Shown piece by piece: positions 747 to 23,836 of a stretch of 27,526 nt of DNA. Source of the stretch: a virus. The stretch covers positions 1-27,526 of IMG/VR virus record IMGVR_UViG_3300025592_000056; one strand, given 5' to 3'. The position numbers and the translations under genes were made by a program. Position 1 is the stretch's first letter; each line of letters starts with the position of its first letter. The notes beneath the pieces were generated by a model. It saw nothing but the letters and a program-made list of their open reading frames with translations. It was not told the origin of the DNA and searched no databases.

Positions 747-775
747 ATTATACACTATTTCGATGATAAAGTCAA
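747..775 (-). promoter_or_regulatory. Sigma70-type promoter for gene 45
   Basis: On the minus strand a TTGACT -35 hexamer (775-770) and a perfect TATAAT -10 hexamer (752-747) are separated by 17 bases, the optimal host sigma70 spacing. It lies between the stop codon of the CobS-like gene and the ATG of gene 45. The -35 is preceded by AGCTG, as at the gene 55 promoter. Confidence 0.88.
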
Positions 776-779
776 CAGC

Positions 780-1889
780 TTAATAACCATAATCTGTAGT
801 ACCAGTATCATTTGGATATTCTCCAACACTCTTCACTGTAGCATCAACTTTTGTGTAAAGATCTAAGAAAGCATCTCTGGTGTCATCATCGAAACGATTG
901 ATACACAGTTGAACAGCCTTATCTCTCTTACCAAAGATGCCAAACGTTTGAACAATGTGGCACAAACGTCTTGTTGAGATTACCTCATCAATGCCTTCAT
1001 CCTCATAAGTCTTACGAATGGTATCGGCCCAACCAATTAATAAATCAGCAAATTCATCATCAACCGAGTTAAACTTCTCCATGTGATTCATAAGAATTTT
1101 CTTCTCTGTCTTAGGTGTTGGGTACTTCTGTTCAATTGTAATTGTAAAGCGTTCTAAGAATGCCTCATCTAAAATTGTAGCAGCAGTAAAGCGACCATCA
1201 TCAGAACCTTTACCTTTAGTATTGGCTGTAGCAATCGCATTAAACCCTTTAGCAGGTTTAACAACTTCACCAGTCTTCTTAATAAGAATTGGCTTACCCT
1301 CTAAAACTCCTTGAAGAGCCATAATCTTATTAGTTCCACGATCGATTTCGTCGATCAATAATATAGCACCAGCCTCCATAGCTTTAATCACAGGACCTTT
1401 TTGGAACACTGTTTCACCATTCAATAGTCTAAAGCCACCAATCAAGTCATCCTCATCTGTTTCAGGTGAGATTTGAACTCTTACATACTCACGACCAGCT
1501 TTAGCACAGGCTTGTTCAATCATGAATGTCTTACCATTACCTGATAAACCTGTCACGAACGTTGGGTAGAATTCTCCCGACTTAATAATTTTTGATATGT
1601 CAGTTGAGTTTCCCCAAGCAACAAATGTACCATCAATCTCTGGAACGTAAACTTCATCATTAGATACAGATGACACTCCAATGTTTTGTACTGTTGATTT
1701 AGCTGATCTGAATGGAACTAGTGCTGCTTCTAAGTTATACACTCCACGTGAAACTTTAGGAAATCTCCTAACATGAGCAGCAGCTGTGTGCTTACTAACT
1801 CCAAGTTCAACTGCAACACCCACAACATCTTTTACTGTAAAATTTACTTTGTTATCCATTTCTGCTAACTTCTTGATCACTTGATTCAT
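780..1889 (-). CDS. MoxR/CobS-like AAA+ ATPase with N-terminal HTH
   Basis: This 369-residue AAA+ ATPase resembles the proteins annotated as CobS in marine T4-like phages. Visible motifs are Walker A GLSGNGKT (114-121), Walker B ILLIDEID (176-183), sensor 1 ATANT (220-224), a DEAFLERF arginine-finger segment (241-248) and sensor 2 STRR (305-308). Residues 16-52 look like a helix-turn-helix domain. In bacteria, CobS pairs with CobT in cobalt chelation, and related MoxR ATPases pair with VWA-domain partners to remodel other proteins. Here the partner is the VWA/HExxH gene just upstream. No CobN-like chelatase subunit is visible, so a cobalamin role is not established; a MoxR-VWA chaperone role is equally possible. 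It has its own promoter and a leader copied from the partner gene. Confidence 0.85.
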   Translation of the reverse strand: MNQVIKKLAEMDNKVNFTVKDVVGVAVELGVSKHTAAAHVRRFPKVSRGVYNLEAALVPFRSAKSTVQNIGVSSVSNDEVYVPEIDGTFVAWGNSTDISKIIKSGEFYPTFVTGLSGNGKTFMIEQACAKAGREYVRVQISPETDEDDLIGGFRLLNGETVFQKGPVIKAMEAGAILLIDEIDRGTNKIMALQGVLEGKPILIKKTGEVVKPAKGFNAIATANTKGKGSDDGRFTAATILDEAFLERFTITIEQKYPTPKTEKKILMNHMEKFNSVDDEFADLLIGWADTIRKTYEDEGIDEVISTRRLCHIVQTFGIFGKRDKAVQLCINRFDDDTRDAFLDLYTKVDATVKSVGEYPNDTGTTDYGY

Positions 1890-1896
1890 AATGTCT

Positions 1897-1928
1897 TACT
1901 CCTTTTCTGATTGTTATAATTACATTAT
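1897..1928 (-). repeat. Duplicated leader, copy at the CobS-like gene
   Basis: These 32 bases run from the last bases of the -10 hexamer through the AAAAGGAGTA ribosome site and are identical to 4276-4307 before the CobT-like gene. Both copies sit directly in front of their start codons. The shared segment makes the two 5' untranslated regions almost the same, which suggests matched expression of the two partners. Confidence 0.9.
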
Positions 1929-1952
1929 ACTCTAAAACGATGGAAAGGTCAA
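1924..1952 (-). promoter_or_regulatory. Sigma70-type promoter for the CobS-like gene
   Basis: TTGACC (-35, 1952-1947) and TATAAT (-10, 1929-1924) are separated by 17 bases on the minus strand. A TATTTAGATG block at 1983-1974 lies 22 bases upstream of the -35, as it does (21 bases) at the CobT-like promoter, so the duplication includes upstream sequence. Confidence 0.87.
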
Positions 1953-1986
1953 CAATTATTTTCAGTTAATTCCCATCTAAATAATG

Positions 1987-2008
1987 TGGGTACTTTAAAG
2001 ACTACCCA
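1987..2008 (-). other. Hairpin downstream of the 53-residue membrane protein gene
   Basis: A perfect 6-bp inverted repeat (TGGGTA/TACCCA) with a 10-base loop lies 11 bases after the stop at 2020. The following bases (ATTATTTAG) are not a real U-tract, so it may be a weak terminator, an mRNA 3'-end stabiliser, or chance. Confidence 0.35.
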
Positions 2009-2019
2009 GGTCTATCATA

Positions 2020-2181
2020 TCACACTAACTCTTCTACCACTCCTAACACCTCTGCTGCGATGAGCAAACTAGCTGCCCACACAAGTGAAAACGGCAATAC
2101 CGCATATCCTAGGAATCTAAATCCTGATTTAACAAAACTTATAAATTGATGCTTATCTGCATCAGGGTACTCATTTAACAT
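2020..2181 (-). CDS. Small membrane protein (53 residues) between the CobT-like and CobS-like genes
   Basis: The frame starts at ATG 2181, nine bases after the CobT-like stop, with an AGGAG ribosome site overlapping that stop codon, so it is translationally coupled. It encodes a short charged N-terminus (MLNEYPDADKHQF) and then a hydrophobic stretch at about residues 24-45 (FLGYAVLPFSLVWAASLLIAAE) that should form one membrane helix. I do not recognise the family with certainty. Its place between the two partner genes, and a hairpin after its stop, suggest it ends the CobT-like operon and could anchor that complex at the membrane; this is inference. Confidence 0.72.
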   Translation of the reverse strand: MLNEYPDADKHQFISFVKSGFRFLGYAVLPFSLVWAASLLIAAEVLGVVEELV

Positions 2182-2189
2182 ATTACTCC

Positions 2190-4271
2190 TTACGCTGCTA
2201 ACGTATCTGTTATTGTTGACACCAATTTCTTAGTGTGTTTCTTACTCTTACTAAAGCTTCTAAACTGCTTCTTAATATCCTTAATGGCGATATCATTACC
2301 GTTTTTGTTATCTTTAATTTCAAACTCATCATCACTTCGTTGACCAACTTTTACTACCGACCACGTATCATATCCACACGCATTTTTAGCACTGATAATA
2401 CCTTCGCTGTTGAACTCTCTATATTTGAGGTTGCTAGCAGCGTAACTACCTTCACCAGATTTACGAATTTTGTAATACCCCTCTTTGAAATCATACTTAC
2501 TTTCAGCTAAGAACAAACACATTACTGTTGCTCCAGTTTGTCTCTTCATCTCCTTAACACAGTTTGTGTATAGCTCATCAGTGCTAGAACCCATCACAGC
2601 CTTACCATGGAAGTCCATAACAACTTTTGACGAGGTTATATCGCTGTAATTATCGCCATAAACTCTCTTAACGTCAATGTAATTAGCATCACCATCAGTC
2701 AATACAATAATGTTGGTGTTTTGAATAGCATATCTCGCTTGAAACTTCTTAACAATGGTTGTCAGTAACATAGTGGTTTCGATTAGAGGAGTTGAACCCA
2801 TTCTCTCGTATGAACATAAATCGTTGTAATTAACACCCGACTCATACCACGCATTTGAATCTCCAGATAAAACAGCAGCAGTAAAGAAGTGTTTAATACT
2901 AGTATTATATTCGCTCTTAGATAACATGTTGTTAGTTATCTCAACCAACTTTACACGATCAGCTCCTAACATAGATCCAGCTGTTTTAAAATCTCCACTT
3001 AATGTATTATTTGATCCTGAAGTGAATGTATAAATTTCGAATGGAATATTAACCCTCTTGCAAAACTGAGCTAGTATAATTGTTTGCTTAACAACGTCAA
3101 CTATGATTCTAGTCATTGAACCTGACCAATCAACTGCCATTACAATACCATGATTCTTGGCTTGGGCCAATTTAGTAACAGTCTTGAAGATGTCTTCAGA
3201 GTACTGGTACTGGTGAAGCTTATTGACGTCTAACGAACCCTTCTTAGCTGTTTGTGAACGACTGTATTCGAAAGCAGCTTTCTTACGCTCGAACTCACGA
3301 GCCATAGCCATCACAATCTTTTTTGAATCGTTCATGAATTCGTTATATTTGGTGTTAATATACTCCGACTCATATACCTTAGTGTTAATATTACGTTCCT
3401 TACGGGCAGCTGACAGCTGTTTATAATCGATTACTAACTTGTTAATATCAGCATCCTTCAAACCGTTACAGAATGCTGGTTGCTTACCTTCTTCATCCTT
3501 TTCTAATAAGTCTGATGAATTGCTTCGTTGAGCTTGATCTGTTAGCGACTCACTTTCATCGATTGGAGTATCACCTGATGTTCCTTCAGTCTCTTCGCAG
3601 ATATCATCACCTGATTCCATTGGCGATCCTGTTTCATCCGATTGATCACCAGTTGTGTCATTTGTTTCTGTGTCATCATTTTCTTCTCCTTCTTCTTCTT
3701 CTTCTTCTTCATAATCTTCTTTGTTTGCTAAGTAAGTATTAATCTCTTTACAAGCGTTTAATACATCATCCCAAGTTTCAACAGCCATTGCTAAATCTAC
3801 AAACAGTTGTTCAGTAGCATCAAATGATACTTCAGCATAACCTCGGCCTTTAGATTGGATGTTTAGTTTATCCATAAAACCATACTTAGTAAGGTCCTTT
3901 CCTACAGTACCAAATAGATCATCATCAAATAGTGTCTTATAACCACTCTTAAATGATTTAACGATACCAGGGTAAGTTCTTTGAATTAGTTTTTCGATGC
4001 GAATGTCTTCAATGATGTTGATCATTGAGCGTGGAACACCAGGGATAGTCTTATCTGAATCGTGCCAGCCATCAGCTGGTGTATATAGTGCATGTCCAAC
4101 TTCATGGCCAACTAATAAGTCGTGAACAGCTTTGCCTTTGTCTGCCCACAATGGAAGACTAAGGACTCTATCAACTACGTTGAATGATGCTGTCTGAAAG
4201 TTGCCGTGTTGAACCGTAAGGTTCTCCTTTGCTAGTAACTTTGCTAAATGATCTTGACTTTGTAAATTCAT
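2190..4271 (-). CDS. CobT-like protein: HExxH domain, acidic linker, VWA domain
   Basis: This 693-residue protein has three parts. An N-terminal metallopeptidase-like domain carries GHEVGHALYT (HExxH at 56-60) followed by IEDIRIEKLI (about 88-97), whose acidic residues could supply a third zinc ligand. A very acidic linker (about 188-265) includes a run of Glu encoded by a TTC/GAA trinucleotide tract at 3688-3710. A C-terminal von Willebrand A domain has the MIDAS residues DWSGS (382-386), Thr495 and the TDGD segment (526-529). The linker-plus-VWA layout is like cobaltochelatase CobT and other MoxR-partner VWA proteins. The AAA+ partner lies just downstream. The VWA domain probably binds the ATPase ring or a client through a divalent metal. 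Whether the HExxH site is an active peptidase is unknown. Confidence 0.83.
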   Translation of the reverse strand: MNLQSQDHLAKLLAKENLTVQHGNFQTASFNVVDRVLSLPLWADKGKAVHDLLVGHEVGHALYTPADGWHDSDKTIPGVPRSMINIIEDIRIEKLIQRTYPGIVKSFKSGYKTLFDDDLFGTVGKDLTKYGFMDKLNIQSKGRGYAEVSFDATEQLFVDLAMAVETWDDVLNACKEINTYLANKEDYEEEEEEEGEENDDTETNDTTGDQSDETGSPMESGDDICEETEGTSGDTPIDESESLTDQAQRSNSSDLLEKDEEGKQPAFCNGLKDADINKLVIDYKQLSAARKERNINTKVYESEYINTKYNEFMNDSKKIVMAMAREFERKKAAFEYSRSQTAKKGSLDVNKLHQYQYSEDIFKTVTKLAQAKNHGIVMAVDWSGSMTRIIVDVVKQTIILAQFCKRVNIPFEIYTFTSGSNNTLSGDFKTAGSMLGADRVKLVEITNNMLSKSEYNTSIKHFFTAAVLSGDSNAWYESGVNYNDLCSYERMGSTPLIETTMLLTTIVKKFQARYAIQNTNIIVLTDGDANYIDVKRVYGDNYSDITSSKVVMDFHGKAVMGSSTDELYTNCVKEMKRQTGATVMCLFLAESKYDFKEGYYKIRKSGEGSYAASNLKYREFNSEGIISAKNACGYDTWSVVKVGQRSDDEFEIKDNKNGNDIAIKDIKKQFRSFSKSKKHTKKLVSTITDTLAA

Positions 4272-4275
4272 AACG

Positions 4276-4307
4276 TACTCCTTTTCTGATTGTTATAATT
4301 ACATTAT
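4276..4307 (-). repeat. Duplicated leader, copy at the CobT-like gene
   Basis: Identical over 32 bases to 1897-1928. It contains the end of the -10 region, the transcribed leader and the AAAAGGAGTA ribosome site. The two promoters differ in the first base of the -10 (GATAAT here, TATAAT at the CobS-like gene). Confidence 0.9.
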
Positions 4308-4331
4308 CCACTATTTTAATCAAAAGGTCAA
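4303..4331 (-). promoter_or_regulatory. Sigma70-type promoter for the CobT-like gene
   Basis: TTGACC (-35, 4331-4326), a 17-base spacer and GATAAT (-10, 4308-4303) on the minus strand. TTAACTG directly precedes the -35, and TATTTAGATG lies at 4361-4352. Both blocks recur before the CobS-like gene. Confidence 0.83.
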
Positions 4332-4370
4332 CAGTTAATTTACTTTATTTACATCTAAATAGTAAGCTCT

Positions 4371-4589
4371 TTAAAAATAGTTGATGACGCCAATAATATT
4401 GATCACTTGGAATATCATTTGCATAGTAACAAAGTGATACATCTTCTGTCTATATCCCATGATGCCTAATGCTACACCAGATATCATAAACATAATGAAA
4501 CCCCATTTAGTGTATATCGTATTAGATGCTATCAGTAAAGCTCCAGCAATACCCGATACAGCACCTATGATTTCCATTAACTTATTCAT
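4371..4589 (-). CDS. Small multi-span membrane protein
   Basis: A 72-residue, almost wholly hydrophobic protein with about three predicted membrane segments (roughly residues 5-22, 29-46 and 52-70). Its ATG overlaps the stop codon of gene 46 (ATGA), so it is translationally coupled to the recombination nuclease genes. The segment IIGAVSGIAGALLIASNTIYTKWG is reminiscent of short phage proteins labelled PnuC-like or YgjV-like, but one third of a transporter length is not enough to assign nicotinamide riboside transport. The following 100 bases hold the CobT-like promoter and leader. Confidence 0.75.
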   Translation of the reverse strand: MNKLMEIIGAVSGIAGALLIASNTIYTKWGFIMFMISGVALGIMGYRQKMYHFVTMQMIFQVINIIGVINYF

Positions 4590-7954: not shown

Positions 7955-7983
7955 ATTATACACTATTCGTCGGGAGAAGTCAA
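7955..7983 (-). promoter_or_regulatory. Sigma70-type promoter for the 55-47-46 operon
   Basis: TTGACT (-35, 7983-7978), a 17-base spacer and TATAAT (-10, 7960-7955) on the minus strand, with a predicted start near 7947. Its -35 is back to back with that of a plus-strand promoter. Confidence 0.88.
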
Positions 7984-8003
7984 CAGCTAAATTAACTGTT
8001 GAC
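7979..8003. repeat. Inverted repeat joining two divergent -35 elements
   Basis: GTCAACAG (7979-7986) and CTGTTGAC (7996-8003) form a perfect 8-bp inverted repeat around a 9-base AT-rich centre. Each arm overlaps the -35 hexamer of one promoter, so any dimeric regulator binding here would control both directions. Confidence 0.85.
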
Positions 8004-8027
8004 CTTTTGGTGTTTTTAGTGTATAAT
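7999..8027 (+). promoter_or_regulatory. Plus-strand sigma70-type promoter (antisense to the downstream gene)
   Basis: TTGACC (7999-8004), a 17-base spacer and TATAAT (8022-8027) on the plus strand, with a predicted start near 8035. No plus-strand gene of normal size follows. The transcript would begin with about 28 fairly G-rich bases and then run antisense into the Sm-like gene (8063-8398). A 15-codon frame with an AGGGG ribosome site starts at ATG 8066 and ends at 8113. Confidence 0.75.
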
Positions 8028-8062: not shown

Positions 8063-8398
8063 TTAATGGAGGATAGTATCTTTATCTATAGACTGATCAA
8101 TAGATGCAGTTGAATCAACTATGTCTAATATTAATCTCAAGTACTGAGCTTTCATCCAAGGTACTACATTAGATTCCATCAATACTTGATACGAGTCTAA
8201 CATATGAACACTATCAGTTGAGAATGGTAACCATGGAGTTAATACATATTCATTATTATCAGCTATATTAACTAACATTGGTTCTTCCAACATCATGTTA
8301 TGATCAACATCTAATGTGTCATGTACGAATGCAAGTATAGTTTCACCATTAATAAGTTTAATATACCTTATGTTAAGATCTGATAATGTGGTATCCAT
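8063..8398 (-). CDS. Sm-like-fold hypothetical protein
   Basis: A 111-residue protein that starts at ATG 8398, eight bases after the uvsW stop, with no strong ribosome site. The N-terminal 65 residues (IRYIKLINGETILAFV, MMLEEPMLVNI, YVLTPWLPFS) have the strand pattern of Sm/LSm barrels: a 'liNGE' first strand, then 'l.eP..v', then a strand before a short 'V..Y' strand. Small proteins of this type occur in other marine T4-like phages, but their role is not known to me. It sits in the place between uvsW and 55. Sequence similarity to the T4 co-activator gp33 is not seen. Its 3' end is covered by a possible antisense transcript. Confidence 0.72.
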   Translation of the reverse strand: MDTTLSDLNIRYIKLINGETILAFVHDTLDVDHNMMLEEPMLVNIADNNEYVLTPWLPFSTDSVHMLDSYQVLMESNVVPWMKAQYLRLILDIVDSTASIDQSIDKDTILH

Positions 8399-10833: not shown

Positions 10834-10925
10834 TGGAGGAAGGAGGAGGAGTCGAACCCCAATCCCGCAAAGGATACCTTGTGTTCAAAACAAGTCGCAG
10901 GACCAACCCCGCTGCATCACCTTCC
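10834..10925 (-). tRNA. tRNA-Ser (TGA)
   Basis: A 92-base gene with the long variable arm expected for Ser. The anticodon stem CTTGT/ACAAG and loop TTTGAAC give TGA (reads TCA); the D stem is GCAG/CTGC and CCA is encoded. Oddities are T-T at 7-66, T-C at 49-65 and discriminator T in place of the usual G, so function may be weakened. It begins eight bases after the U-tract of the upstream terminator. Confidence 0.88.
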
Positions 10926-11119: not shown

Positions 11120-11147
11120 ATTATACACCATTTTTCAAAAAAGTCAA
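11120..11147 (-). promoter_or_regulatory. Sigma70-type promoter of the 32-codon ORF unit
   Basis: TTGACT (-35, 11147-11142) and TATAAT (-10, 11125-11120), 16-base spacer, preceded by TTAACCG, close to the TTAACTG seen at other promoters in the window. It begins ten bases after the stop of the tube-fold gene. Confidence 0.84.
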
Positions 11148-22828: not shown

Positions 22829-23836
22829 TCAATTCACCACGCTATAAGAAACTGCAACAGGCCATGCCTTGGTCAGGTTGCTTGAAATTTGTGGGTCAAA
22901 TGATATTGCAGCTGACCCAGCAGGCACTGAAACTATCATGTTTAATTTATTAGCGTCATGAGTAATAACCGAAACATACTCACTTGCTGGCCACGTTAAT
23001 GTTACTGCTCGGCTTATCCAGGTTTGATCAACATCGTAAGCATCAACCATGCTAAACCCAGTGGATAAATTCTCGTTGTTGACGTCATGGATACCAGACC
23101 ATACATCACCTTTATATCCAAGACCATCCTGCGCATTTGCTTCACTTGATGCTAACACCACCGAATAACTTCTCCAGCCTGCTACAATATACCCACTAAG
23201 GCTGGCTTGTAATTTGGTCATCAAGCTATCCATCATGGTTTCAGCATCGGCCTTATCAGCAGCGCTTTGGTCTGTTACATCAGCATCCCACAAATCCCAA
23301 AGCTTATGAATATTGTCAAGAAAGCCCGTATTACCATCCAAGAAATAGTCGTTATCTAACTCTTCAGCACTAGTATGTGTTAACAACCCAGCGGCAAGAG
23401 CTTGTGATGGAGTGTATCCGTATGCACCTGCTAGATCTGCAGCCAGATCATCATTACTATAGCCAGCACCACCTTTACGTGATTCTTTGCCCCACCATTC
23501 AACCCAACCATCAAACAATTCCACAGCCAAGCCAATGCCTGTGGATGCATTAGCACCAAAAGCTTGTGCCAATACTAATGATTGCCCATAATGAGCAATT
23601 AAATCTGAGTTGGCCCCAGTATGTGGGTGCCATTTATCAATATGCTTAGATATCATAGAAACAACTGGACTTGCATTATTAATCCATGAGCCTGGATTGA
23701 TAATATTAATATCTACATTAGCAGCAGCATCCTTGATTATATTCCACTCTCTATCCCTTTGCGTAGAGTTGGATGTATGGCCAAATCCGTTATTTAGATG
23801 CCCCACTAAACTGTCCAATATTATAGATGAATTCAT
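22829..23836 (-). CDS. Unrecognised 335-residue protein inserted between neck genes 13 and 14
   Basis: The ATG at 23836 follows the gene 13 stop by four bases and its stop is one base before the gene 14 ATG, so it is translated in step with the neck proteins. The N-terminal two thirds look helical with a clustered pattern of polar residues: DLIAHYGQS (H82), AVELFDGW (E105), SNDDLAADLAGAYG (D129-D134) and THTSAEELDND. That H...E...D spacing recalls helical hydrolase-like domains, but no family is named. The last third (about 215-335) is probably beta-rich (VISVPAGSAAISFDPQ). T4 has nothing at this position. It may be a neck decoration or a virion enzyme. Confidence 0.7.
   Translation of the reverse strand: MNSSIILDSLVGHLNNGFGHTSNSTQRDREWNIIKDAAANVDINIINPGSWINNASPVVSMISKHIDKWHPHTGANSDLIAHYGQSLVLAQAFGANASTGIGLAVELFDGWVEWWGKESRKGGAGYSNDDLAADLAGAYGYTPSQALAAGLLTHTSAEELDNDYFLDGNTGFLDNIHKLWDLWDADVTDQSAADKADAETMMDSLMTKLQASLSGYIVAGWRSYSVVLASSEANAQDGLGYKGDVWSGIHDVNNENLSTGFSMVDAYDVDQTWISRAVTLTWPASEYVSVITHDANKLNMIVSVPAGSAAISFDPQISSNLTKAWPVAVSYSVVN

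Follow-up and report, generated by a model that had tools for sequence, protein, structure and literature searches.

The cobS-like and cobT-like genes of a T4-like marine myovirus each stand behind a copy of the same promoter-leader cassette, and we consider it on balance probable, from the sequences compared here, that these paired cassettes serve matched early expression of the two genes and are kept alike lineage by lineage. The comparisons reveal a repeat which appears, in its leader, to be specific to the pair, which recurs with other sequences in related phages, and which has an operon as its apparent alternative.

The main genes of the cobS/cobT part of the window (the whole stretch of DNA that was analysed, a 27.5-kb fragment of this phage) all lie on the minus strand, in the order uvsY, uvsW, a small ORF, gp55, gp47, gp46, a 72-aa membrane ORF, the cobT-like gene, a 54-aa membrane ORF, the cobS-like gene and gp45 (Table 1). 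The product of the cobS-like gene is solidly identified as CobS, having a MoxR-type AAA+ core related to cobaltochelatase CobS. The cobT product is best called CobT-like: it belongs with phrog_459 and its VWA domain carries a MIDAS motif, DWSGSM..T..DGD/E, which was invariant in 8/8 members of an alignment read by eye; the match to the CobT equivalog TIGR01651 is weak (19.7 bits, short of the cut-off of 759), and a profile search of the PDB returned no match for this protein. Beside the MIDAS motif, the CobT-like proteins of the window (2190-4271, minus strand) and of its relatives have an invariant HEVGHAL (HExxH), a possible metal site which may account for their ‘peptidase’ label; cobS and cobT are known to co-occur in many tailed viruses, with cobT often mislabelled peptidase (PMC8651126), and a core-genome comparison found CobS in all of its cyanophage genomes (PMC3037559). 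Small membrane-protein ORFs (2015-2181 and 4371-4589, minus strand) stand ahead of the two cassettes; in the second, similarity to a fragment of an NMN-family transporter falls below the cut-off (E 2e-4).

Table 1. Genes, promoters and repeated elements of the cobS/cobT region and other promoters of the same class in the window.
Feature	Position	Strand	Evidence
gp45 promoter, same class, different leader	747..775	-	sequence pattern
cobS-like AAA+ ATPase (CobS/NorQ/CbbQ type)	780..1889	-	AAA_5 2.9e-20; phrog_249 2.3e-111; PDB CobS 9ujv 3.4e-19
cobS copy of the 32-nt identical block (ATAAT of -10, initial transcribed region, Shine-Dalgarno)	1897..1928	-	sequence identity; leader 24/24 vs cobT
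cobS promoter, TTGACC-N17-TATAAT	1924..1952	-	sequence pattern
TATTTAGATG block upstream of cobS promoter, weakly conserved	1974..1983	-	sequence
cobT-like protein, MIDAS motif DWSGSM..T..DGD and HEVGHAL	2190..4271	-	phrog_459 ‘peptidase’ 1.4e-148; TIGR01651 CobT 2.8e-4 (below cut-off); alignment
cobT copy of the 32-nt identical block	4276..4307	-	sequence identity; leader 24/24 vs cobS
cobT promoter, TTGACC-N17-GATAAT	4303..4331	-	sequence pattern
TATTTAGATG block upstream of cobT promoter	4352..4361	-	sequence; hairpin not significant
gp55 promoter, same class, different leader	7955..7983	-	sequence pattern
Divergent promoter, same class, without plus-strand ORF after it	7999..8027	+	sequence pattern
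tRNA-array promoter, same class	11120..11147	-	sequence pattern

The cassettes, one on each side of cobT, form direct repeats separated by about 2.4 kb, with 80% identity over 75 nt (1897-1971 and 4276-4350). A preliminary description of this DNA had reported a 32-nt identical block upstream of both genes and one promoter pattern at both; the block proved exact, and the two promoters do share the pattern, differing in the first letter of the -10. The exact run begins inside the -10, spans the leader and stops at the Shine-Dalgarno sequence, and since it thereby includes the ATAAT of the -10 as well as the leader and the Shine-Dalgarno, ‘leader’ and ‘promoter’ overlap. Within IMG/VR the 21-nt leader core ATAACAATCAGAAAAGGAGTA is restricted to seven near-identical contigs, a confinement which puts the repeat beyond chance. 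Two copies are present in 4/7 of these, the same four that also include the cobT start region, and contigs spanning both gene starts have the core at cobS and cobT alike.

The two halves of the cassette behave differently. The promoter is present at cobS and cobT, as first described, but it is neither confined to the pair nor a special copy, as nine other promoters share its -35/-10 pattern. The window and same-species contigs together hold 11 promoters of one class, CTGTTGAC(C/T)..AGTGTATAAT and close variants: those of cobS, cobT, gp45, gp55, the tRNAs, gp44, gp43, a queD-like gene and two small ORFs, and one divergent promoter (those of gp44, gp43, the queD-like gene and the two small ORFs being seen in the same-species contigs). 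To judge by this pattern, the promoter half is of the general early type of this phage and of host-sigma70 type. Over the 30 nt before the -10, the cobS/cobT pair scores 20, inside the range of the other pairs (mean 16.9, maximum 24); over the first 24 nt after it, cobS and cobT are identical at 24/24 positions, whereas the other 54 pairs among the 11 promoters of the species average 11.7, with a maximum of 15/24. Thus the pair is ordinary before the -10 and identical after it, which makes the promoter general and the leader pair-specific. No dispersed leader copies were found in the window and same-species contigs, where the leader stands at cobS and cobT alone; its uniqueness within the species is judged from overlapping contigs, the record being a 27.5-kb fragment. 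From the -10 onward the leader would thus be specific to cobS and cobT.

It could be argued that nothing here is pair-specific, any two early genes sharing a consensus promoter and leader, and the nine further promoters with CTGTTGAC..AGTGTATAAT or close variants are what such an argument would predict. However, none of the nine shares the 24-nt leader (at most 15/24), and the same holds in the related genome G018, where the cobS/cobT pair agrees at 20/24 leader positions, the next pair at 18 and the mean pair at 11.2. We consider this explanation very improbable for the pair as a whole, rejecting it for the leader while accepting it for the -35/-10.

The divergent promoter of the class (7999-8027, plus strand), a perfect match to the early pattern, lies back-to-back with the gp55 promoter, also in same-species contigs, and points into the 3′ end of the minus-strand gene at 8063-8398; it is a candidate source of antisense or small RNA. 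Beside the five-tRNA array, the region 10838-10925 (minus strand), with a long variable arm, is likely a sixth tRNA; it matches the Rfam tRNA-Sec model (E 0.0064), and ARAGORN did not call it. Above threshold, an Rfam search of the window gave only tRNAs.

Further upstream, the TATTTAGATG blocks of the preliminary description are present at the positions it gave, but their distance to the -35, put there at 21-22 nt, counts to 21 nt at cobS and 20 nt at cobT. CATCTAAATA (which is TATTTAGATG on the minus strand) occurs at 1974 and 4352, and a third copy lies on the plus strand at 23791. Among the relatives, TATTTAGATG was found in one other lineage only (L021, before cobS), so that it is unconvincing as the site of a regulator, and we reject it as a conserved one. 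It is perhaps a decayed stem-loop. Stem-loops upstream of the window's promoters are not significant (z = 0.17 for cobS, -1.03 for cobT); significant ones occur in some relatives (L021, L038, L041, L061).

The pairing itself reaches far beyond the window. From 80 IMG/VR loci and nine phage isolates we obtained 31 distinct genomes in which both gene starts could be read, and in 15 of these the cobS and cobT upstream regions match each other with a score of at least 35 (ten of at least 60), against a background of 200 shuffles per genome whose maxima were mostly 21-34; there was no match in L054 and a weak one in L071. The genome's own pair beats any same-gene match in other genomes in L000, L016, L021, L032, L035, L061 and L087. 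Mean identity within pairs is 0.76 in the -35, 0.92 in the extended -10, 0.77-0.83 in the first 14 nt after the -10 and 0.51 in the spacer; cobS-cobS comparisons between genomes at the same positions give 0.30-0.46. Throughout one clade (L057-L086) the leader is ACAGTTA(A/G)TTA and variants, with 28 copies in 211 kb, all before cobS or cobT; 25 of the 28 were assigned automatically, the script having failed to label the remaining three, which are also cobT/cobS starts (in L083, and in L121, which is the same contig as L073). Exact-motif counts likewise give cobS and cobT alone, or nearly so, in G000, G009, G010, G011, G015 and G018. Thus the earlier idea that the two genes are wired alike extends to pairs matched within genomes though their sequence varies between genomes. 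The test set beforehand, whether related phages keep the genes and lack the shared blocks, came out divided: the letters do change, but the pairwise match of the two signals persists.

How the likeness arose is less simple than the copying of the cassette alone, as was first suggested. Divergence is seen in the spacer between -35 and -10 but not in the leader, and which parts of the cassette are in common varies with the lineage (L061 has the stem-loop and -35 without the leader; L035 the stem-loop and leader without the -35), all of which indicates ongoing co-evolution or recombination rather than one duplication. One possibility, to our minds somewhat unlikely, is neutral concerted evolution, in which the direct repeats flanking cobT recombine or convert and their likeness records recombination, not matched dosage. 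The placing of the repeats around cobT would favour this, as would the upstream stem-loops of the relatives named above and the different pieces common to different lineages, which also argue against selection on one fixed element alone. Extra cassette copies adjoin small mobile ORFs: a further copy precedes a small ORF in G003, G005, G012 and G013, and in G004 the cassette is separated from cobT by a 74-aa ORF (L095, 9609-9860), which has a homologue with its own promoter in the window's species (L009, 6033). These small ORFs (MKKIT.., about 71-74 aa) appear, from their sequence and settings, to be a mobile small-gene module. However, the gp45 promoter of the window lies 1.2 kb from cobS, a shorter distance than that to the cobT promoter, but scores only 29-40, against 93 for the cobS/cobT pair; this dissimilarity, with the divergence of the spacer between conserved functional elements, argues against recombination alone, as does a motif exclusive to the pair across many genomes of the L057-L086 clade.

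Matched early expression, the reading that we favour, would work through a cassette at each gene, made up of a strong host-sigma70-type early-class promoter and a short leader. The part specifically common to cobS and cobT would be the initial-transcribed/leader segment, some 15-25 nt long with the Shine-Dalgarno at its end. Cassettes kept alike in each lineage would allow the AAA+ ring subunit and its VWA partner to be made at the same time and rate, and their likeness would probably be held by selection on the -10, start and leader, aided by recombination between the direct copies flanking cobT; early timing, equal dosage and the cause of the likeness are what we infer here. That the signals stay matched while their sequence changes between lineages suggests a need for the two proteins to be produced jointly.

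Operons offer another route to the same end. The relatives with flipped gene order (L037-L052) have cobS and then cobT with almost no gap and a single cassette before cobS, which would drive both genes, and pelagiphage Mosig has cobT, a small ORF and cobS in close succession. The cyanophages have a different cobS/cobT promoter, in which an inverted repeat, GNCAGT-N6-ACTGNC, lies upstream and stops 31-32 nt short of TATAAT; at least 8/10 positions of the repeat are found before 51 of 83 cobS and 45 of 55 cobT genes, as against 1% in shuffles. We rejected the idea that this bipartite promoter is unique to the two genes, as matrix scans of six complete genomes (L226-L283) gave 8-17 copies per genome; cobS and cobT rank first and second in 4/6 of these, by a matrix trained on cobS/cobT sites. 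In S-SSM4 (complete, 182.8 kb) TGCTATAATAANTATATAAACA occurs without mismatch exactly twice, at cobT and cobS. Promoters of this class are usually without a -35 and often have a terminator-like hairpin between repeat and -10; no earlier description of the class was found in the literature searched.

The cyanophage repeat, carried at a fixed distance by the promoters of both genes, might hint at a putative dedicated trans-acting regulator, of phage or host, such as the preliminary description supposed; it would recognise the -10/start/leader either in DNA, as an operator, or in RNA, close to the ribosome-binding site. A shared element unique or nearly unique to cobS/cobT would also suit such a regulator, as would the palindromes that lie across the start region in several lineages (GGTACC, AGTACT, AGATCT). 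We nevertheless hold it to be quite unlikely. The cyanophage repeat serves all of its 8-17 promoters per genome, and the start-region palindrome was rejected as an operator, its enrichment being weak (a mean of 3.8 of 5 against 3.0 in shuffles, with some automatic -10 anchors misplaced, in L000 and L021) and slightly raised at general promoters too. The leader RNA is unstructured, so that a hairpin or other RNA structure in it was also rejected. RegA binds the AUG-proximal region (PMC3014915), and a RegA translational operator does not fit, as the shared block ends at the Shine-Dalgarno and the AUG-proximal sequences, TAAGACATT and TACGTT, differ between cobS and cobT. Nor is this a T4 middle (MotA) promoter: the MotA box TGCTT is absent at -30, where both cassettes have GTTGACC. 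A wider proposal, which we put forward as rather unlikely, is that T4-like marine phages use the leader as an element dedicated to co-regulation, which a co-diverging factor reads as a lineage-specific cobST code, with an operon or another promoter class replacing it where it is missing.

The nearest parallel may be the PeSL (promoter-early stem-loop) cassettes of T4-type phages, attributed to Arbiol 2010 and Comeau 2014 (both cited in PMC4503421), whose short repeats reportedly recombine or convert. Like these, the cobS/cobT cassette is a short, repeated, intergenic cassette of a T4-type phage with a strong sigma70-like early promoter (to which the 11 promoters of the TTGACC-N17-(T/G)ATAAT class seem to conform), is associated with module shuffling and has a stem-loop in several relatives. 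It differs in that the window has no significant upstream stem-loop, where a PeSL cassette has a stem-loop terminator just ahead of its promoter, in that its cassettes do not lie in a hyperplastic region, and in that its promoter part is dispersed but its distinctive part, the leader, is not, being limited to two functionally linked genes. It could thus work like a PeSL cassette but with a pair-specific leader. T4 early promoters, built of UP, -35, TGn and -10 elements, similarly have a near-consensus -35/-10 with extra conserved positions (PMC2988021), as does G018 with GTTTAC..TGTGGTATAAT and a TGn element; in contrast, the window's promoters have GTG or GAG, not TGn, before the TATAAT, and no pairing of two genes via a common leader is known among T4 early promoters. 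Repeated intergenic sequences also act as promoters in halovirus HF2, with positions kept across the genus (PMC8707807), but those are archaeal promoters with many copies per genome and without gene-pair specificity. The viral cobST two-gene cluster (PMC8651126) likewise brings cobS and cobT together, but gene content, not shared regulation, was treated there.

The matched start signals of cobS and cobT, a pair widespread in tailed viruses, offer a concrete, testable co-regulation element. Our comparisons also show that promoter-leader pairs can evolve in concert inside one phage genome. Matched start signals, re-made in each lineage or replaced by an operon, are independent evidence that CobS and CobT work as a single complex whose two parts are required in step.
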